A stretch of 50,291 bases of DNA, from contig MKGP02000065.1 of NCBI GenBank assembly GCA_001913845.2, positions 1 through 50,291 on the forward strand. The letters run 5' to 3'. Shown here one piece after another: positions 1 through 27,414 of the stretch. Below the pieces are notes generated by a model. That model did not search any database. It was not told where the DNA came from and saw nothing but the letters and a program-made list of their open reading frames with translations. The position numbers and the translations under genes are program-made. How positions within the stretch are numbered: position 1 is the first letter of the stretch; every line of letters starts with the position of its first letter. This DNA is from Limnothrix sp. CACIAM 69d. GTDB taxonomy: Bacteria > Cyanobacteriota > Cyanobacteriia > CACIAM-69d.

Positions 1-175
1 TATGACGCGGTGAGGATGCGTTGGCCATCGGGGCTAAACTGCGCCGCTCTGACATCGCCTTCATGCCCCGCCAGTTTGGCGATTTCCTGACCGGTTTTGG
101 CATCCCACAGCCTGGCCGTTTTGTCCCATGACGCGGTGACGATGCGTTGGCCATCGGGGCTAAACTGCGCCGCAG
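1..175 (-). repeat. Tandem WD40-encoding repeat, 126-bp period
   Basis: The DNA at 3-47 recurs almost exactly at 129-173, with one mismatch in the first 20 bases. The period is 126 bp, or 42 codons, which is one WD40 blade. The near identity of the DNA suggests recent blade duplication or gene conversion. More blades presumably lie beyond the window edge. Confidence 0.85.
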
Positions 176-1994
176 TGACACGGGAGCGGTGGGCTAGGAG
201 CGTTTGGTGTTGCCACGGTTGATTGGCACGGTTTTCTACCCGATCCAAAATGGTTTGCAGAGCATAGACAGGACTAGCAGCAAAGCCATCTTGCCCCTTG
301 GTTTTAATCAGGCTGCGTGCCTGTTCGCTGAGCTGCATTGCATCCACTAATCCCCGTACCTGCTCGAACTTGGCGCGATTGAGCGCGGCTGCCCCAGCCT
401 TTTCTAGCCCATTGGCCTGCAAGATTGTTTCACGGCTTTGTTGAGCGATCATCGCGCTCGGCACTGCCACGCCCGCAATCACGATCGCTGCCCCAGCCAA
501 AATGAAGCTCAACAGATTGCGCCGATTTGCCTGTTGTTTCACCTGCGCCGATTCAGCTCGCGTTTGCTCAACTTGCTCACGCACTACCGCTAGCTGCTGA
601 TTTGCCTCTGTCAGTTCCGTTTCCGCCTGCTGCCGAGCCACCGTCAAAATCTGATTCGCTTCCTCTTGGGCTGCCAGTTGGGTTTCCATCTCCAACGCCT
701 GACTGGCATCCAAAAAGCGGCGATCGTCATCCCCCAAGCTTTTGTCGTTCGCCCAGGCTCTGGCTCGCTCCAATTCTTGCCCCCGCAACAACTGGAGCGA
801 GTCTTGCTGGCCCGAAGCCAACCAAGCCGCGATCGCCCCGCCATAGGGCCTCAGGGTTTCCAGCGATCGCTCCAACCAATCCCGGCTGAACACCTGCTGA
901 TAAATCCGGTTGTAAACCCGCAGACTGCCATCCCGCTGAACCACCACCCCCGTCAGCCGCAGTTCCACTTGCTCTTGGCTTTCGTTCGCTGGGATTGCGC
1001 CCTGCTGCACAATTTGCTGATAGAGGCCCAGCAGTCGCCCCGTGCGTTGCTCACCCGATCGCAGCAGTCGATCGCGGATGGTACGCAAGTGCTGCGGAAT
1101 ATCCTGCGCTTCCCAGTTATCGATAATTTGCTGCTGCACCAAGTCAGCAACCCAAGCAATTTCTTGCCCCAGCTCTGGGCTGGAGTCCGCCGCCAAAATC
1201 AACTTGCACAGCCTTTGGGTCAAAAACGGCTGCCCCCCCGTCCAGTCCAAAACGGCGTGCAGCACCGCTTGCGGCTGGCCCGACTTGGCTCCTAATCCCT
1301 CAGCCAGGGGTTGCGCTTCTTCTAAGCTAAATCCGGTTAGATCGATCGCCCGGCCAATGTTGAAGGGTGTGCGCTGGCGATCGCGCATCAAATCTGCCGG
1401 AGTTGTCACCCCCAACAGCGTAAAGGTCAGCCGTTTATAAGCTGGATTCTCAGCACGACGGTTAAAGCATTCCCGAATCAGCGCAAAGAAATCATCCAAA
1501 CTAAACGACAGACTCAGGACACTATCAATCTCATCCACAAAAATGGCGATATTTTGAGGAATGAGTTCGAGCAATACCTCTTCAATAAAAACTGCAAAGC
1601 GCTGAACATAGGACAACAAATGATGCTCAGTCCACCATTGATTCAAATCAAATTGGCGATGCAATCGTAGGGGACGCACAATGCGATTGATCATCCCCAC
1701 ATACCACTGCTCAGGAGTAACATCAGCCGTCCCGATCGCCGTTAGGTCGATCGCTGCACAGACCACTCCCTCCGCCTGCAACCGTTGCATCACCTGCACC
1801 CGCAGGCTCGATTTGCCCATCTGCCGACAATTCAGCACATAGCAGAATTCCCCTTTTTTCAGGGCTTCATACAGATCAGTATCAGCTTGCCGCCGCACAT
1901 AGGTGGGCGCATCAATGGGCAAGCTTCCCCCAACCTGGTAGTCATACTCGACGTTCGGCCCTTCCGGTGGCATTGCTGCTAGCGAATCGCTCAT
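1..1994 (-). CDS. AAA-like ATPase / WD40 repeat protein, 3' end outside window
   Basis: The frame is open from the ATG at 1994 to the window edge, giving about 664 residues with the C-terminus missing. The N-terminal part is an AAA-like (STAND-type) ATPase module: a Walker A stretch reading CRQMGKSS near residue 60 and a Walker B stretch IFVDEIDS near residue 150. A coiled coil follows, then one hydrophobic segment near residues 490-515 ([11 protein letters not shown]), then WD40 repeats beginning near residue 600 ([11 protein letters not shown] repeated). The start is supported by GGAGGA 8 nt upstream, inside the end of the preceding gene. That gene ends with TAG and only CCG separates it from this ATG, in the same frame, so translation is probably coupled. 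Function is inferred: proteins of this type are signal-sensing NTPases in cyanobacteria. The true substrate or ligand is unknown. Confidence 0.9.
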
Positions 1995-1997
1995 CGG

Positions 1998-3707
1998 CTA
2001 TCCTCCCAGCATTTCCCTGAAATACTGCCGATACAACTTGCATGATGGCGTGACATCATTGCCACTGAAGCGCACTAATCCCATGCTCGCGAGTCTAAAG
2101 GCTTCAGTCATATCAATCCGCACTGGCTCATCCACTGTAATCACCCGTTTCATCGCTGCCAACAAATCCAGGTGTTCTTGCAAACTACAGAGATGACGAC
2201 GGAGATGCTCCCCATAGGCCCATTCTGCCGTGGGCGCATTTTGCATCAACTGGGCAAAGGTAATTTCTCCACGGGCTAAATAATAAAGCGCCACTCGCAA
2301 TAGATAAGGATGTCCCCCCGTCAAATCCATAATGTTCACGGATTCTCGGGGCGATAAAACCAGTCCGTGCCGTTGGATCAAGTCCGCCACCTGATCATCA
2401 TTCAGCGGCGGCAATTCAACCGGCAAACCCACATTAAACGGCGACTGATTGATATTCAGCGGAATATAAACTTCCTTGGAATGGGACAAAATCAATCGGA
2501 GGTTGCGCCAAGCCGGATTAAACTTAGATTCCTCATGCCAGGAACGCAATAACCCAAAAAAGTCGCTAGCAACAGACTCGTACTGAAAGAGTTGATCAAC
2601 CTCATCCAACCCCAAAGTCAGGGGAGCCTGCAATTCTTCTAAAAGATAAAGCTCAAAATAATCGGTGCATTTGTCATTGCAGCCTAACGCGCCTTGCCAA
2701 TATTCTTCAACCTTGTCTGGTAGCCCTAGTTTTCGGCTCACACGAGCACAAAGCCACCGGAGCAAGCTATCTGGATTTTCTAATGATTTTTCTCCGGCTG
2801 CTTGCAGATTCAGCCAGACTGATCGATATCCCTGTTGCGTTGCATGATCCAAAATTCGCAGCATTAATGAGGACTTCCCCATCTGCCGAGGCGCTTTAAT
2901 CCGAACTAAGGCCCCAGGTTTGACGATCGCCTCATAACACCGCTGTTCGATCGGTGGACGCTCAATATAGAAAGGAGAATCTAGCGGTACTTGTCCCCCC
3001 AGCTCTTCTAGATCAACGGAGATCAATTTCTGGCTCGGTTTGACTGGTGGGGGAGCAGGGGCGATCGCATCTGATTCTGGTTTCTCTGGTTGAACCTCTG
3101 AATTGATAGGTGATCCTGGGCCGGGCTGGACTGGTTGTTCTTTCCTCAGCAGCACTGGGGTCAAATCCTCGGGGATGCCCGCCATCTGAATGCTATTACG
3201 AGCAAACTTATAGGCAAATTCAATATCGCGTCCTGCCCCCAGCGCGTCATAAAAGCCAACGGCAAATTCCCGGGCGGCCGCATCGCCTACCGCCTGATTC
3301 ATCCCAATCACATAGGGAATATGCTGAGCGATCACCTTGGCTTGTACTTCTGAATAACAAGCATTCAGCAAGACACACTCAATTTGATCAGCAAACAGTT
3401 CAAAGAGTCCGGCGATCGCCTGGGTACTGACTAGTTTGGCTTGGCCCGTTTCATCCTCCATGGCCAGACCCGCTTCACCAACCCCATGCCCTGAGAAATG
3501 CACAATCTGAGGGGTTAATTCCAAGATGGCTCGTTGCACATCTCGGGGCCGAACGGCCCATTTTTGTAATAGCTCAAAGCGATCGCGCTGCTTAGCCCGG
3601 GTCAAGCCTTCATCAATCTCCCGCACCTCTTGATCTAAACGCAGAGGCGTGGAGTTTTTGGGGTTTGCCGACAGAATTAAAATCTTTTTGCGAGAAGTCT
3701 TGCGCAT
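1998..3707 (-). CDS. CHAT-domain protease fused to AAA-like ATPase
   Basis: The 569-residue protein starts at ATG 3707. Residues 1-190 form a CHAT (caspase-like) domain: the strand KKILILSANP, the probable catalytic His74 in FSGHG and the probable catalytic Cys117 in LLNACYS, the usual dyad of the family. A proline-rich linker (about 191-228) leads to an AAA-like ATPase with Walker A QMGKSS (Lys278) and Walker B LGLDEVD (about 365-371). This ATPase belongs to the same family as the one in the next gene downstream. The two genes are separated only by TAG CCG and lie in the same frame, so they are almost certainly one operon. The likely role is a protease whose activity is gated by NTPase oligomerisation, as in STAND-type conflict or cell-death proteins. 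That role is inference. Confidence 0.92.
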   Translation of the reverse strand: MRKTSRKKILILSANPKNSTPLRLDQEVREIDEGLTRAKQRDRFELLQKWAVRPRDVQRAILELTPQIVHFSGHGVGEAGLAMEDETGQAKLVSTQAIAGLFELFADQIECVLLNACYSEVQAKVIAQHIPYVIGMNQAVGDAAAREFAVGFYDALGAGRDIEFAYKFARNSIQMAGIPEDLTPVLLRKEQPVQPGPGSPINSEVQPEKPESDAIAPAPPPVKPSQKLISVDLEELGGQVPLDSPFYIERPPIEQRCYEAIVKPGALVRIKAPRQMGKSSLMLRILDHATQQGYRSVWLNLQAAGEKSLENPDSLLRWLCARVSRKLGLPDKVEEYWQGALGCNDKCTDYFELYLLEELQAPLTLGLDEVDQLFQYESVASDFFGLLRSWHEESKFNPAWRNLRLILSHSKEVYIPLNINQSPFNVGLPVELPPLNDDQVADLIQRHGLVLSPRESVNIMDLTGGHPYLLRVALYYLARGEITFAQLMQNAPTAEWAYGEHLRRHLCSLQEHLDLLAAMKRVITVDEPVRIDMTEAFRLASMGLVRFSGNDVTPSCKLYRQYFREMLGG

Positions 3708-3993: not shown

Positions 3994-6039
3994 ATGTCCG
4001 TTACTGCGCCGCTCCAAACCCGAGACCCGATCGCTTTTCCGCTGACGGCGGTGATCGGCCAAGAAGCGATCAAAATGGCCCTGCTGTTGGCGGCGATCGA
4101 TCCGGGCCTGGGGGGCGTGGCGATCGCCGGTCGGCGCGGCACGGCCAAATCGGTGATGGCGCGGGCGATCCATGCCCTGCTGCCCCCGATCGAAGTGGTG
4201 GATGGCTCCCTCAGCAATTGCGACCCGGACGCGCCCGATCGCTGGGAAGACGGCTTGCAATTTCATGGCGAAGTGCCCCGCAAAGTGATTCCCGCACCCT
4301 TTGTGCAAATTCCTTTGGGCGTGACCGAAGATCGGCTGCTGGGTTCCGTGGATGTGGGCCAGTCCGTGAAGCGCGGCGAAACGGTGTTTCAGCCCGGCTT
4401 GCTGGCGGAGGCGAACCGGGGTGTGATGTATGTCGATGAGCTGAACTTGCTCGATGACCAAATCGCCAACTTGCTGCTCGGGGCGATCGGGGAAGGACGT
4501 AACCAAATTGAGCGAGAAGGGATCAGCTTTGCTCACCCCTGCCAAGCGCTGTTGATCGCTACCTACAACCCGGAAGAGGGGCCGCTGCGAGAACATTTGC
4601 TCGATCGAATTGCGATCGCCCTCTCTGCCGATGGGGCCTTGGGCTTGGATCAGCGGGTGGAAGTGGTCGATCGCGCCGTGGGCTATGCCCGATCGCCCGA
4701 GGACTTCCTCGGTCAATACGCCGAAGAGCTGGACGGTCTGAAAACCCAAATCCTGTTGGCGCGGGAGTGGCTGCGCGATGCCACGATCACCCGCGAACAA
4801 GTGGAATATCTGGTGCAAGAGGCGGTGCGCGGCCGGGTGCAAGGCCACCGGGCGGAACTGTTTGCGGTGCGTGTGGCCAAAGCTCATGCGGCCCTCGATG
4901 GACGGACGGCGGTGAATGCCGACGATTTGCGGGTGGCGGTGGAGTTGGTGATTGTGCCCCGGGCCACGGTGATTGAAACGCCGCCGGATGAGCAACAGCC
5001 GCCGCCGCCCCCGCCGCCGCAACAACAGCCGGAAGCGGAACAGGAACAGGACGACGAAACCGACAACGAAAACGAAGATCAAGACGAAAACGAAGACGAG
5101 GATCAACCGGACGAGCCGCCCGCGATCCCCGAGGAATTCGTATTCGACCCGGAAGGGGTGGTGATGGATCCGTCGGTGCTGCTGTTTGCCCAAACCACGG
5201 CCCAGCGATCGGGCGGTAGCTCCGGCAGTCGATCGATCATCTTCTCGAACGATCGGGGGCGCTACATCAAACCCGTGTTACCGCGCGGCCCCGTGCGTCG
5301 GATTGCCGTCGATGCCACGTTGCGATCGGCCGCGCCCTACCAAAAAGCCCGCCGCGCCCGGGCCGCCGCCACTGGCGAGACCGGCCGCCGCGTGTTTGTG
5401 GAAGAAAGCGACGTGCGGGCCAAGCGCCTGGCCCGGAAGGCCGGAGCCTTGGTGGTGTTTGTGGTGGATGCGTCGGGGTCAATGGCCCTGAACCGGATGC
5501 AGTCCGCCAAGGGAGCCGTGCTGCGGTTGCTGACGGAGGCGTACCAAAACCGCGATCAGGTGTCGCTGATTCCCTTCCGGGGTGAGCAAGCGGAAGTGCT
5601 GTTGCCACCCACGCGATCGATCTCGGCGGCCCGGCGACGGCTGGAAACCATGCCCTGTGGCGGCGGTTCGCCCTTGGCCCACGGTTTGACCCAGGCGGTG
5701 CGCGTGGGGACGAATGCCCGCCAATCAGGGGATGTGGGTCAGGTGGTGATTGTGGCGATTACGGACGGTCGGGGAAATGTGCCCTTGGCGCGATCGCTCG
5801 GCCAGCCCATGGAGCCGGACGAGAAACCCGACGTGAAGCAAGAGCTGCTGGATATTTCCGGCAAAATCCGCGCCCTGAACATCAAGCTGTTGGTGATCGA
5901 CACCCAAAGCAAATTCGTTTCGACGGGTTTCGCCAAGGAACTGGCAGAAACGGCGGGCGGCAAGTATTATCACCTGCCGAAAGCCACCGATCGAGCGATC
6001 GCCGAAATGGCCCGAGGGGCGATCGCCGATCTGAAATAG
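3994..6039 (+). CDS. chlD: Magnesium chelatase subunit D
   Basis: The protein has 681 residues, the normal length for ChlD. It is the large ATPase-like subunit that, with ChlI and ChlH, inserts Mg2+ into protoporphyrin IX, the first committed step of chlorophyll synthesis. Domains in order: an AAA+ domain (about 1-325) with [11 protein letters not shown] at the P-loop, which is related to ChlI but lacks the GKS ending; a proline-rich then acidic linker (about 325-375, a run of Pro followed by Glu/Asp/Asn); and an integrin-I (von Willebrand A) domain with the MIDAS motif DASGS at about 492-496 and ITDG near 589. The ATG at 3994 gives the expected [11 protein letters not shown]-terminus. It is divergent from the CHAT gene across 286 bp, and convergent with the next gene, 14 bp away. 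Confidence 0.97.
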
Positions 6040-6053
6040 AGGCGATCGACCAG

Positions 6054-6620
6054 TTACGGTTCTCGACGCTTCAGCCAGCTAAACAACTCGTCTACGGTTA
6101 AGGCCAAGGGCAAGTCCGGCAACACCGGCAGGTGATCGCTTCCCGACAGCTCCAGCGGCAACGCATCGGGCAAAAACACCACCACCACCCGATCGCGCGG
6201 CATCACCAACCAGCCCAACTGGCCCCCATGGCGCAAGCAGTGCAGCAGGTTTCGCACCACGCGGGTTTCGCCCTGGGCTGGCGACAGTATCTCGATCGCC
6301 CAGTTGGGAGCCACCGTCATTCCAAAGTCCGAAATTTCCCCCGCCTCATCGATCGGCACATCGGTTTCGCGGACAACGATCAAGTCCGGCACGATCGAGC
6401 GATCGCCAAAGGTGCAGCGCATTTCTGTTAGGGCTTCCCAGGGGGAATCACTGGCATTAATGGCCCCACCGAGACGAATTTGCAGACGGCTATGTTTTCC
6501 ACCGGGCATGGGTTTTTGGATCGGCCCTTGATCGTGAAACTCCCAAGCCGGCGAGTCATCAATATCCGGCTGTTGCAAAAACTCGGCCAGCGATAAACCT
6601 GGAGCAATCGTGGCAACCAT
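6054..6620 (-). CDS. Uma2 family (DUF820) putative endonuclease
   Basis: The 188-residue protein is of the Uma2/DUF820 type, a PD-(D/E)XK-fold family that is greatly expanded in cyanobacteria. Visible family features are the N-terminal LSLAEFLQQP, the core RCTFGDRSIVPDLIVV, where the Pro-Asp is the usual metal-site acid, and NWAIEILSP with the second acidic residue. The start is ATG 6620. It is convergent with chlD and divergent from a second Uma2 gene at 6820. The two are clear paralogues (both have CTFGDRSIVPD and EILSP). The biological role of these proteins is not established. Nuclease activity is inferred from the fold. Confidence 0.88.
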   Translation of the reverse strand: MVATIAPGLSLAEFLQQPDIDDSPAWEFHDQGPIQKPMPGGKHSRLQIRLGGAINASDSPWEALTEMRCTFGDRSIVPDLIVVRETDVPIDEAGEISDFGMTVAPNWAIEILSPAQGETRVVRNLLHCLRHGGQLGWLVMPRDRVVVVFLPDALPLELSGSDHLPVLPDLPLALTVDELFSWLKRREP

Positions 6621-6819
6621 GATTGAATTGCTGCTGTTCGATGGTTCGGTTCGACTGGGTGACAGATCCTAGGCAATGACAACAAGCTCGAATCGCCTGG
6701 TTCTATGGTAGGCGGGGCAAGGGAAAACAGCCATTGCAGCATCAACCCCATTCCAGAATTTGCAATAGAATCCAGGCAACAGAACCAATCTCGCGGCGCT
6801 GTTCGCAGGCTGCTTGCCT

Positions 6820-7398
6820 ATGACGGTTTCGATCGCTCCGATCGCCACCTTGGCGGAATTTCTCGATCGCCCCGATCTCGACGAGTCACCCGCCTGGGAA
6901 TATCTCGATGGCGTGGCAGTCCAAAAAACCATGCCCAAGTTTCGCCATTCCTTACTGCAAAAACGACTGATTCGGGCGATCGATGCAGTGGGCGATCGCT
7001 ACACAGCCATGCCGGAGTTGCGCTGTACCTTCGGCGATCGCTCGATCGTTCCCGACGTGGCGGTGATTGCTTGGGAACGAGTGGCGCTGACGGATGAGGG
7101 CGAGCCGATCGATCAGTTCTCGGCGGCCCCAGATTGGATCATTGAGATTTTGTCCCCGGAGCAATCCACGACCAGGGTGCTAGACAAGCTGCTGCACAGT
7201 TTGCAATTCGGCAGTCAGTTGGCTTGGTTGGTTGATCCCCAGGAGCGATCAGTGATTGTCTTGTTGCCCGATCGCCAACCCTTAATCTGTCGGCGGGCAG
7301 ATCCCTTGCCTTGCTTGCCAGACTTGCCCCTGACCCTGACAGCGGAGCAGATTTTTGGTTGGCTGAAGGTGGGTTCGCAACCGGAGGAAAACGCGTGA
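6820..7398 (+). CDS. Uma2 family (DUF820) putative endonuclease, paralogue
   Basis: A second Uma2-type protein of 192 residues. It has LAEFLDRPDLDESPAWEY, then RCTFGDRSIVPDVAVI and DWIIEILSPEQ, matching the neighbour at 6054-6620 nearly motif for motif, so the pair arose by inverted duplication. The ATG at 6820 is preferred over an in-frame TTG two codons upstream. The last codons overlap the ureD start (GTGA at 7395-7398), and the ureD ribosome binding site lies inside this gene. It is therefore probably co-transcribed and translationally coupled with the urease genes. A role in urease function is not implied by the family. Confidence 0.88.
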   Translation: MTVSIAPIATLAEFLDRPDLDESPAWEYLDGVAVQKTMPKFRHSLLQKRLIRAIDAVGDRYTAMPELRCTFGDRSIVPDVAVIAWERVALTDEGEPIDQFSAAPDWIIEILSPEQSTTRVLDKLLHSLQFGSQLAWLVDPQERSVIVLLPDRQPLICRRADPLPCLPDLPLTLTAEQIFGWLKVGSQPEENA

Positions 7399-24315: not shown

Positions 24316-27300
24316 TCATTCAGTGGCCTCGGCGGAAAGGGTGGGTCGATCGCCCCGAGAGTCCGGCTCGATCGGCAGGAACGATAATTCTGGCTTGCGG
24401 CCCGGCGGCAATTGGCGCGTGGTGATCGTATTCAAGCGGGCCTCGGACTTGTTGAGACTCAGCTCCGGCGACCAAGCGGGTTGCTGGGCAGCGGGCAGGC
24501 CGTCACCATGGGGGCCCATCTCCGAAGCCCCATTGGCCAACGGCGTTTGGGTAATGGGTAAGGTAATCGTAAATTCTGCACCCTGGTCAGGGGCCGATCG
24601 ACAAACCATGCTGCCGCGATGGCGCTGAATAATTTGATAGCTAATCGAGAGGCCCAATCCCGTCCCCTTGCCTAGGGGTTTTGTGGTGAAGAAAGGATCA
24701 AATAATTGGGATTGAATTGCTTCAGGAATCCCCGGCCCATTATCTCGAATGGTGACACCAATATGCTGAGAATCCGGTTGTGAAAGCTCAATCCAAATGC
24801 GACCAATAAAGGGCAATTGATCGCGACTCAGTTGCTCTTCTTGGGCCTCTCGCAGGGCATCGATCGCATTGGAAAGCAAGTTCATGCAAACCTGATGAAT
24901 TTGACCGGAATAACATTCAATGGGGGGAATGTTGTCATAATTCCGAATGATCTCAATTTCGGGATAGCTGCCATTGGGCTTCAGATGATATTGCAAGATC
25001 ATCAGGGTGGACTCGATCGCCTCTTGCAAGTAAAGGGCGTTGGTAATGGTGCGATCGACCCGTGAGAAACCACGCAGCGCCGAGACAATTTCTCGAATTC
25101 GATTCGTGCCCAAATGCATCGAATCCAGTAGCTTTGGAAAATCCCGCGCCAGAAAGTCCAAATCAAAGGTTTCCAGCAAGGCTTGAATCTGCTCTTTTGG
25201 CGCTTGTTGGGCTTCCAGCCGGGCCAGTTGAATCAGAAATTCAGAATATTCACGAATGGGGCCCAAGTTGCTATGAATAAACCCGATCGGGTTATTGATT
25301 TCATGGGCAACACCAGCGATTAATTGCCCCAAAATTGACATCTTTTCGCTTTGGAGCAAATGCATTTGGGTTTGCTTGAGTTCGTCCAGGGTTTGGGCCA
25401 ATTCAGTCGCTTGCGATCGAGTTTGTTGCAGCAATTCCGTATGCTGAAGTGCCACACCCAATTGCGCACAAACCTGGCGCAAAAATTCCACTTCCGAGTC
25501 TTGCCAATGGCGGGGAGCGGTGCATTGGTGAATGCCCATCAATCCCCATAGTTCTTCACTTTGAATGATCGGAATCACCAAATTGGCCTGCACTTGCCAA
25601 GTCCGCAACATTTCCAAATGGCAATCGGGCATGGTGGAATTGTGGACATTCGGAATGCTGTGAACTTTGCCCACTTGGTACTGAAGAACATGCTGATCGC
25701 TAAAGCAGGGATCCTCTAATTCCAAGTGCAGAATGGAGGTGCAACCCCGGGCCCGATCTTCCGCAATGATTTTGCCCTGGGCGGTCGGGGCGTGGGAATT
25801 AAACGCAAACACCACCACCCGATCGGCCCGCAGCAGTTGCCGCACTTCCCGCGCCGTGGTGCGAAACACGGTTTCCAGATCCAAAGATTCGCGAATTTTG
25901 GCAATCAATCGCGCCAGGGTTTGTTGCTGATGGATCACCCGTTCCAGATCCGCCGTCGATCGCTGAAGTTCCTCGTTCGATTGGCGTAACTCCGCCGTGC
26001 GGGTCTGCACTTGGGCCTCCAAACTGGCGTTCAGGCTGTTCACTTCTGTATACAGCCAATGTTGCTTGACCGCCGTGGCAAACCGTTCCCCCAAGGCCTG
26101 GGCGAGCTTCACCTCAGAGACCGTCCATTGCTGGGCCTGACCGATCCTGATTTGTCGCCACACCTCAAAGGAATGGCGGGCCATCAGTTGGCGCGTGTCC
26201 GGGTCGTGCCAGCCGGTCCAAAGCTCATCGGTGTTGACCTCATCCCGAAAAATGCTGAGACAACCCAGTAACTCACTGCCGTAATAGAGGGGAACCACAA
26301 TCAGCCCCCGGATCGGCAGCCATTGAAACGAGGGAGCCACCGATCGCAGCAGGGGTTCTCGGTAAATGTCCCCGATCGCCCAAACGCGCTGGCTAAAACT
26401 GCTGCTGTCCTGGGGTGGGGCCGCCAGGCCATAGTTGGCGCGCATCCACTCCACAGACCAATCCTGGGTGGTGGTGTTGGGCGGTGGCTCGGGCACTGCG
26501 CCCGCTTTCAAAAAGGCATAGACCAGCCGGTGTTCCTCGAAGGGGCGTTGATCCGTGGTGGCCAGGGGCTGGGGCTGGGGCCCCACGGTATACAGTTCCC
26601 GATCGGTCTGGCCCCCGGGCCAGAGACACAACCGGCCGCCGCTGCCTCCCAAAATTTGCACCGTTTCTTCCAGGGCCTTTTGCAGTTGGCCCGTGGGCGC
26701 TTCGTGCAGCAGGGCCGTGACGCGGTTAATGCTCGCTTCCTGAAGGGCTTGATCCGTGACCCGCTGCACCAAAATTGACTGGGCGATCGCGATTTCCACC
26801 TGATCGACCACCGCTTGGATGAATTGCAGTTCCTCCTCATCCACCGATCGGGGTTCCGCGTGGTGAGACACCAACAGCCCCCACAGGTTGCCCATGTGCA
26901 AGGTGCTGGAAACGGGCGGCTCAGAGGTGGCCGGAAAGTTATCCAGCACGATCGGAACCACCACCGACGACTGCACCCCCATCACCGTCAGATATTCCAC
27001 ATGGCATGGATCCACCGGACGGTAGCGCATCGTTGAAGGACTGCGTAATTCCCCATCGCCCGGGGGATCCATGGCACTCAGGCCCGTTTGGCACTCAGCC
27101 ACATCCACCACCACTCGCTGGCGGGCCCGCACGAACAACTCTCTGGCCTGGGGCGGGATATCATCCACCGGAAAATGCAACCCCTTCAAGGAAGGCAGTC
27201 GATCGGGCACGAGGGATTCGGCCACCACCGTGCCATGGCCCTCGGGCGAAAATTGGTAAATCTTGACCCGATCGGTCTCCAAAAAAGCCCGCACCTCCGC

Positions 27301-27414
27301 CACCGTCACCGCCAGGATTTCGCTCAGCTCCAGGGACTGCCGAATCCGGTTTGCAATCCCCATCAGTAGCTGTTCCTGAGTGCCTTTGCGTGGCTTCTGT
27401 AAATCTAATTCCAT
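24316..27414 (-). CDS. Multi-GAF sensor histidine kinase, possible photoreceptor
   Basis: This 1032-residue soluble kinase has three GAF domains. GAF1 (about 20-215) carries phytochrome-like signatures: RVKIYQF, FPVDDIP (Asp85-Ile-Pro) and Cys137-His138 in PCHVEYLTVMGV, the position of the bilin-attachment Cys in phytochromes and cyanobacteriochromes. GAF2 (about 230-450) has no such motif. A coiled coil follows, then GAF3 (about 500-665) with Cys598-His599 in DCHLEMLRTWQV. The kinase core has the H box GVAHEINNP (His704), N box LLSNAIDAL, G1 DNGPGIP and G2 GKGTGLGLS, all intact. The C-terminal ~90 residues are disordered. There is no PAS or PHY domain next to GAF1. Chromophore binding is inferred from motifs only. 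It may be co-transcribed with the ferredoxin and oxidoreductase genes. Confidence 0.92.
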   Translation of the reverse strand: MELDLQKPRKGTQEQLLMGIANRIRQSLELSEILAVTVAEVRAFLETDRVKIYQFSPEGHGTVVAESLVPDRLPSLKGLHFPVDDIPPQARELFVRARQRVVVDVAECQTGLSAMDPPGDGELRSPSTMRYRPVDPCHVEYLTVMGVQSSVVVPIVLDNFPATSEPPVSSTLHMGNLWGLLVSHHAEPRSVDEEELQFIQAVVDQVEIAIAQSILVQRVTDQALQEASINRVTALLHEAPTGQLQKALEETVQILGGSGGRLCLWPGGQTDRELYTVGPQPQPLATTDQRPFEEHRLVYAFLKAGAVPEPPPNTTTQDWSVEWMRANYGLAAPPQDSSSFSQRVWAIGDIYREPLLRSVAPSFQWLPIRGLIVVPLYYGSELLGCLSIFRDEVNTDELWTGWHDPDTRQLMARHSFEVWRQIRIGQAQQWTVSEVKLAQALGERFATAVKQHWLYTEVNSLNASLEAQVQTRTAELRQSNEELQRSTADLERVIHQQQTLARLIAKIRESLDLETVFRTTAREVRQLLRADRVVVFAFNSHAPTAQGKIIAEDRARGCTSILHLELEDPCFSDQHVLQYQVGKVHSIPNVHNSTMPDCHLEMLRTWQVQANLVIPIIQSEELWGLMGIHQCTAPRHWQDSEVEFLRQVCAQLGVALQHTELLQQTRSQATELAQTLDELKQTQMHLLQSEKMSILGQLIAGVAHEINNPIGFIHSNLGPIREYSEFLIQLARLEAQQAPKEQIQALLETFDLDFLARDFPKLLDSMHLGTNRIREIVSALRGFSRVDRTITNALYLQEAIESTLMILQYHLKPNGSYPEIEIIRNYDNIPPIECYSGQIHQVCMNLLSNAIDALREAQEEQLSRDQLPFIGRIWIELSQPDSQHIGVTIRDNGPGIPEAIQSQLFDPFFTTKPLGKGTGLGLSISYQIIQRHRGSMVCRSAPDQGAEFTITLPITQTPLANGASEMGPHGDGLPAAQQPAWSPELSLNKSEARLNTITTRQLPPGRKPELSFLPIEPDSRGDRPTLSAEATE

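Follow-up and report, generated by a model that had tools for sequence, protein, structure and literature searches.

Bacterial NLR immunity is known mainly from single-chain cytosolic proteins. Avs proteins and the bacterial NACHT NLRs join effector, STAND NTPase, and repeat sensor in one chain whose sensor is cytosolic, and the Avs ligands are phage terminase or portal. In the APAF-1/CED-4 apoptosome, a STAND NTPase platform clusters a caspase-type protease that is recruited to it (through a CARD in APAF-1), and APAF-1 carries a WD40 sensor. The fungal HNWD NLRs (HET-D/HET-E) are single eukaryotic chains with a HET effector, a NACHT domain, and near-identical WD40 repeats, in which seven positions show high dN/dS (PMC12222747); for prokaryotes, hotspot variation has been reported as a general trait of WD40 proteins that are highly repetitive (PMC5587647).

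The closest descriptions that we found are of two predicted conflict systems. The two-gene nSTAND2 counter-invader system (Kaur et al. 2021, PMC8195603) consists of adjacent STAND NTPase genes with a predicted hetero-multimer and a variable effector on one of them; its effectors are GT4 or HEPN domains, and one partner has eroded NTP-binding motifs. The EACC1-caspase system (Kaur et al. 2020, PMC7159879) is membrane linked, is also built of two genes, and has a caspase-family peptidase; some of its variants combine a transmembrane segment with periplasmic-binding domains, and its constant partner is the EACC1 transmembrane domain. In the literature searched, neither the accession PF14516 nor the phrase "AAA_35 domain" appears in any paper, the NCBI protein name appears in one genome paper, and nothing was specific to the pair or the family described here.

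The gene pair of Limnothrix sp. CACIAM 69d presented below is a member of a widespread family, unnamed in the literature searched, with the NLR-like build known from plants, animals, and fungi, split over two proteins. Unlike the nSTAND2 system, both partners have AAA_35 domains with Walker A and Walker B motifs, and the sensor side is a WD40 array with a transmembrane helix; unlike the EACC1-caspase system, whose core lacks a STAND pair, it is built on two STAND NTPases. In contrast to Avs and NACHT proteins, the effector lies on one chain (A) and the sensor on the other (B), probably outside the cytoplasm, and whereas the apoptosome recruits its protease, here the protease is part of the same chain as a second NTPase.

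Organization of the gene pair

The window, the stretch of 50,291 nucleotides analyzed here, is a whole contig (C74) of a 4.57-Mb assembly, taken from its first base. The features of the pair are as follows.

1998 to 3707, minus strand: gene A, 569 amino acids, CHAT domain, disordered linker (residues 192 to 239), and AAA_35 STAND NTPase (open reading frame, Pfam, model)
3141 to 3689, minus strand: CHAT domain of A, residues 7 to 189 (Pfam, conservation, structure match 8tl0)
3486 to 3488, minus strand: codon of His74, catalytic His of the SGHG motif (alignment of relatives)
3357 to 3359, minus strand: codon of Cys117, catalytic Cys of the NACYS motif (alignment of relatives)
2013 to 2996, minus strand: class-1 AAA_35 of A, of STAND-type fold, with Walker A and the Walker B motif LGLDEVD (Pfam, motifs, structure)
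2001 to 2007, minus strand: GGGAGGA, probable ribosome-binding site of gene B, within the end of gene A (sequence reading)
1995 to 2000, minus strand: stop codon of A (TAG) and spacer CCG, in the frame of B (sequence)
3 to 1994, minus strand: gene B, AAA_35, helical/coiled-coil region, transmembrane helix, and WD40, cut by the contig end
885 to 1928, minus strand: class-2 AAA_35 of B with both Walker motifs intact (Pfam, motifs)
459 to 515, minus strand: predicted transmembrane helix of B, residues 494 to 512, with four K/R before it versus one after
3 to 206, minus strand: first part of the WD40 array of B, two repeats in view, one or both partial

Pfam assigns CHAT (6.1e-11, residues 11 to 174) and AAA_35 (2.1e-139, residues 238 to 565) to gene A, and AAA_35 (1.3e-31, residues 23 to 370) and WD40 (7.1e-17, two stretches) to gene B. 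Together with the open reading frames, this confirms the order read in the first-pass annotation, a CHAT-AAA fusion followed after TAG CCG by an ATPase of the same family with WD40 repeats, and sets it on the minus strand. The junction reads GGGAGGA-TAG-CCG-ATG, and the ribosome-binding site of B likely overlaps the last codons of A. The shared reading frame stressed in that annotation is real at this locus, but it is not a conserved property, since the gap lengths modulo 3 of 32 tightly spaced A- and B-type pairs fall 12/8/12; a functional role of the frame, such as a read-through fusion, was rejected on this ground. Tight spacing itself, overlaps included, is conserved among relatives.

The reading frame of gene B runs from 1994 to beyond position 3, giving 664 amino acids so far, and stays open at the left end of the window because the contig starts inside the WD40 repeats. 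Its last 500 bases have no DNA match elsewhere in the assembly, and no other part of the assembly supplied the rest of B. Both visible repeats have a near-identical stretch of DNA in common and differ in variable surface codons; such repeat DNA would explain why the assembly stopped at this point.

Predicted structures of the CHAT and NTPase domains

The catalytic Cys117 proposed in the first-pass annotation is kept in 16 of 17 CHAT relatives and His74 in all 17; the one protein that lacks Cys117 is truncated by an insertion. The closest solved structure to the CHAT domain of A is SAVED-CHAT (8tl0; Z 23.6, rmsd 2.4, 185 residues), where CHAT is fused to SAVED and was solved as an activated filament, whereas here it is fused to a STAND NTPase. 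With its His/Cys dyad, its Pfam assignment, and this caspase-like fold, A has the features of a CHAT protease, and proteolysis is predicted.

In the model of A (pLDDT 80.6), AAA_35 is predicted to form the full NBD-HD-winged-helix unit seen in CED-4, plant NLRs, Dark/Apaf-1, and archaeal STAND ATPases. Residues 236 to 569 superimpose on residues 120 to 470 of CED-4 (Z 18.9, rmsd 4.0, 295 residues), further matches are RPP1 (Z 18.8) and archaeal 2qen (Z 20.9) and 2fna (Z 19.8), and the Foldseek matches include Avs3 and Avs4, which have the STAND fold in common. The model of B is weak (pLDDT 59), and its NTPase half resembles archaeal STAND ATPases (2fna, Z 14.4) and ORC/Cdc6.

PF14516 (AAA_35) splits into a high-scoring class 1 (A-like) and a low-scoring class 2 (B-like). 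Walker A is kept as GK[ST]S in 44 of 45 class-1 proteins and as GK in 97% of class 2; the Walker B Asp/Glu is kept in 38 of 45 and in 97% or more, respectively. These motifs and the fold are those of NLR-type STAND NTPases, for which ligand-driven, NTP-dependent oligomerization is predicted. The profiles of the two classes match (hhalign E 2.4e-23), so the classes are homologous, and they are old and distinct, being about 26% identical.

Conservation of the pair

Relatives of A occur in 89 of 291 genomes of the phylum, and the full CHAT-AAA_35 form occurs in about ten (50 to 61% identity). By neighborhood reading with plasmid copies included, a B-type gene adjoins 21 of the 22 CHAT-AAA_35 genes found, and across 24 cyanobacterial genomes 37 of 60 class-1 genes have a class-2 gene on the same strand within 8 kb. 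The adjacency that the first-pass annotation had proposed to look for across cyanobacteria is thus conserved; it had also named absence from other genomes and a context unrelated to defense or signaling as outcomes that would speak against it, and the pair is present in other genomes, with a wider context of signaling or conflict.

The two NTPases could instead be independent paralogues that a duplication placed next to each other and that have no joint function. Both belong to one Pfam family, and the remaining 23 of 60 class-1 genes lack a class-2 partner on their strand within 8 kb. We nevertheless regard this as highly improbable: the classes are old and distinct, and pairs recur over many families with varied outputs and sensors. 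Moreover, class 2 and class 1 are fused in a single chain in three genomes (L081, L082, and L083), and the two NTPases diverge in step over 44 pairs (Mantel r 0.79, p <= 2e-4), a correlation to which linkage and species history contribute, since linked genes that follow one species tree will correlate even if their products never make contact. Between two species of one genus, the NTPase of A is 94% identical, versus 66% for the NTPase and linker of B.

The distribution is patchy. Among six genomes of the family, only the species of the window has CHAT-AAA_35, and the pair is absent from the chlD locus of a same-genus species. Copies are also inactivated repeatedly, by a DDE_Tnp_1 transposase in A (L051 6334-9724), by IS66 in B (L055 9563-15617), and by a frameshift (L041).

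Several further arrangements were seen. The same genome has a second pair on contig C35 (L010 7094-12125), a gene with an HTH-like N terminus and AAA_35 followed by AAA_35-WD40; the B gene of this pair is interrupted by an in-frame TAG, whereas the copy in the same-genus genome G033 (L098) is open. A stand-alone CHAT gene in a genome of the same family (G133:C13:377553-378113, open frame of 221 amino acids) is 61% identical to the CHAT of A. In three genomes, A and B are separated by a gene for a 208-residue HSDR_N-like protein (L047 8743-9369, L051 9791-10417, L054 9239-9865).

Modular outputs and sensors

Class-1 NTPases are joined to CHAT, TIR, trypsin-TIR, cyclase-TIR, kinase, kinase-TIR, LuxR-type HTH-TIR, or GGDEF domains, and class-2 NTPases to WD40, periplasmic-binding (Peripla_BP_6), GAF, GUN4, GUN4-PG_binding_1, TPR-MORN, or WD40-Amidase_3. 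These sets indicate that the output is placed on A and the input on B, and the HTH, GGDEF, and kinase outputs of sister pairs suggest a platform wider than cell death; such pairs could serve ordinary regulation.

The same could hold for the pair in the window. B would then sense a periplasmic or envelope condition, and the protease of A would regulate a transcription factor, an anti-sigma factor, or another regulator, with no part in immunity. The Peripla_BP_6, GAF, and GUN4 sensors and the HTH, GGDEF, cyclase, or kinase outputs of other pairs speak for this, as does the second pair with its HTH-like N terminus, found in a same-genus species too. We consider ordinary signaling a serious alternative but a rather unlikely one, for the reasons given with the genomic context below.

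Two other loci extend the range of architectures. On plasmid pNsp_e of Nostoc ATCC 53789 (L111 5977-10305), a class-2 gene with WD40 and Amidase_3 stands beside a trypsin-TIR-AAA_35 gene; the amidase may provide cell-wall lysis as an output or take peptidoglycan as an input. An IMG/VR contig (L107 2199-5927) encodes a single-chain CHAT-nSTAND1-WD40 protein, a one-chain equivalent of the pair.

Membrane topology of the sensor

A hydrophobic helix follows the NTPase in 30 of 44 class-2 proteins, with 120 K/R residues before it versus 62 after, and in relatives Peripla_BP_6, GUN4-PG_binding_1, and WD40-Amidase_3 lie on the sensor side of this helix. A helix between NTPase and sensor, together with periplasmic-binding, peptidoglycan-binding, and amidase domains in relatives, makes an extracytoplasmic sensor probable. 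The first-pass annotation had read the locus as NLR logic, a protease effector and a repeat sensor linked through homologous NTPases; architecture, fold, and pairing agree with this, but the location of the sensor needs correcting, since hydropathy, charge, and the domains of relatives put the WD40 sensor of B probably outside the cytoplasm, unlike that of a cytosolic NLR.

Alternatively, the helix could be a mere membrane anchor with the WD40 repeats inside the cell, which would make the pair an Avs-like sensor of phage proteins spread over two chains. The STAND fold is common to A and Avs3/Avs4, in a small number of WD40 relatives, L048 among them, a helix is not clearly recognizable, and the helix is absent from GAF and GUN4 sensor variants (L058 and L092). 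The charge bias and the Amidase_3, PG_binding_1, or Peripla_BP_6 domains beyond the helix weigh against a cytosolic sensor, and we judge it improbable.

Variability of the WD40 repeats

The WD40 repeats of relatives reach up to 91% mean identity within a protein, with several proteins at 79 to 91%. In eight of eight relatives, under one common shift, the variable columns fit HNWD positions 10, 11, 12, 14, 30, 32, and 39 best (aggregate p 2e-4; individually p < 0.01 in six and borderline, 0.05 to 0.06, in two), although these are generic surface hot spots of WD40. Between repeats of relatives, differences per hot codon per pair are 0.63 nonsynonymous versus 0.02 synonymous. Thus, the relatives show variability of the HNWD type, and the window, with two repeats visible, is consistent with it. 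Near-identical repeats that vary at the het-d/het-e positions favor a role in recognition.

Genomic context

Nostoc, Calothrix, and Tolypothrix have plasmid-borne pairs. On plasmid1 of Nostoc sp. HK-01 (L099 551-17675), two CHAT-AAA_35/AAA_35-GUN4 pairs surround the restriction enzyme NspV and a Peptidase_C14-FGE gene, and a type III res gene comes next, an arrangement that is possibly a protease-cascade island. Chromosomal neighbors are mostly housekeeping genes; Uma2, HsdR_N, and kinase genes occur there in small numbers, and no defense islands were seen among them. No close DNA copies of the locus were found on plasmids, and no record in the phage collection has a relative; IMG/VR holds only CHAT-only relatives, the CHAT-nSTAND1-WD40 protein, and one TIR-AAA_35 pair. 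No gasdermin stands beside the pairs of relatives among the Pfam families listed (first 25 of 185).

The housekeeping neighbors of chromosomal pairs would suit ordinary signaling. Conflict is a better match than a fixed ligand for the CHAT, TIR, and trypsin outputs, the plasmid carriage beside restriction genes, the patchy presence, the repeated inactivation, and the amino-acid-changing variability of the sensor surface. A defense role is plausible, given the plasmid pairs with restriction genes, but unproven, given the mostly housekeeping chromosomal neighbors.

In the window, the pair adjoins a magnesium-chelatase-D-like gene (3994 to 6039, named from sequence), the only adjacent gene that might point to a MoxR-vWA ternary conflict system. 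Beside it lie two divergent Uma2-type genes (6054 to 6620 and 6814 to 7398, the first confirmed by Pfam), which both match PADLOC PDC-S03 and are present in G033 too. Further along, 24316 to 27414 encodes a phytochrome-like GAF-PHY histidine kinase. Elsewhere in the genome there are four Peptidase_C14 caspase-like genes (C73, C5, C25, and C80), whose products are possible downstream zymogens of the CHAT protease.

Proposed mechanism and implications

We give a somewhat better than even chance to the reading that A and B form a two-chain, NLR-like receptor-effector switch with the sensor of B across the membrane. B would be a single-pass membrane protein, its STAND NTPase (AAA_35) cytoplasmic and its WD40 sensor beyond the membrane. 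A ligand, in all likelihood a protein that is non-self or variable in some other way, would bind the WD40 propellers and change the nucleotide state of B, which would then join A through the two homologous AAA_35 domains in a mixed STAND oligomer. Clustering would bring the N-terminal CHAT domains of A together and turn on proteolysis, which may act on a further zymogen in the cell or on housekeeping proteins, with dormancy or death as the outcome.

More tentatively, cyanobacteria may possess a large and as yet unnamed group of transmembrane NLRs divided over two chains, with an outward hypervariable sensor (WD40 or another) on one STAND chain, a hetero-STAND ring, and interchangeable cytosolic executioners (CHAT, TIR, trypsin, kinase, and cyclase) on the other chain, recognizing phage, predators, or non-kin in the manner of fungal het NLRs. 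If the two-chain switch is correct, this conserved, membrane-crossing STAND pair, in which protease, TIR, or kinase outputs can be exchanged and the sensor varies like fungal incompatibility genes, would be what paired NLRs look like in bacteria, and it would open cell death of the caspase-like kind in cyanobacteria to direct tests.
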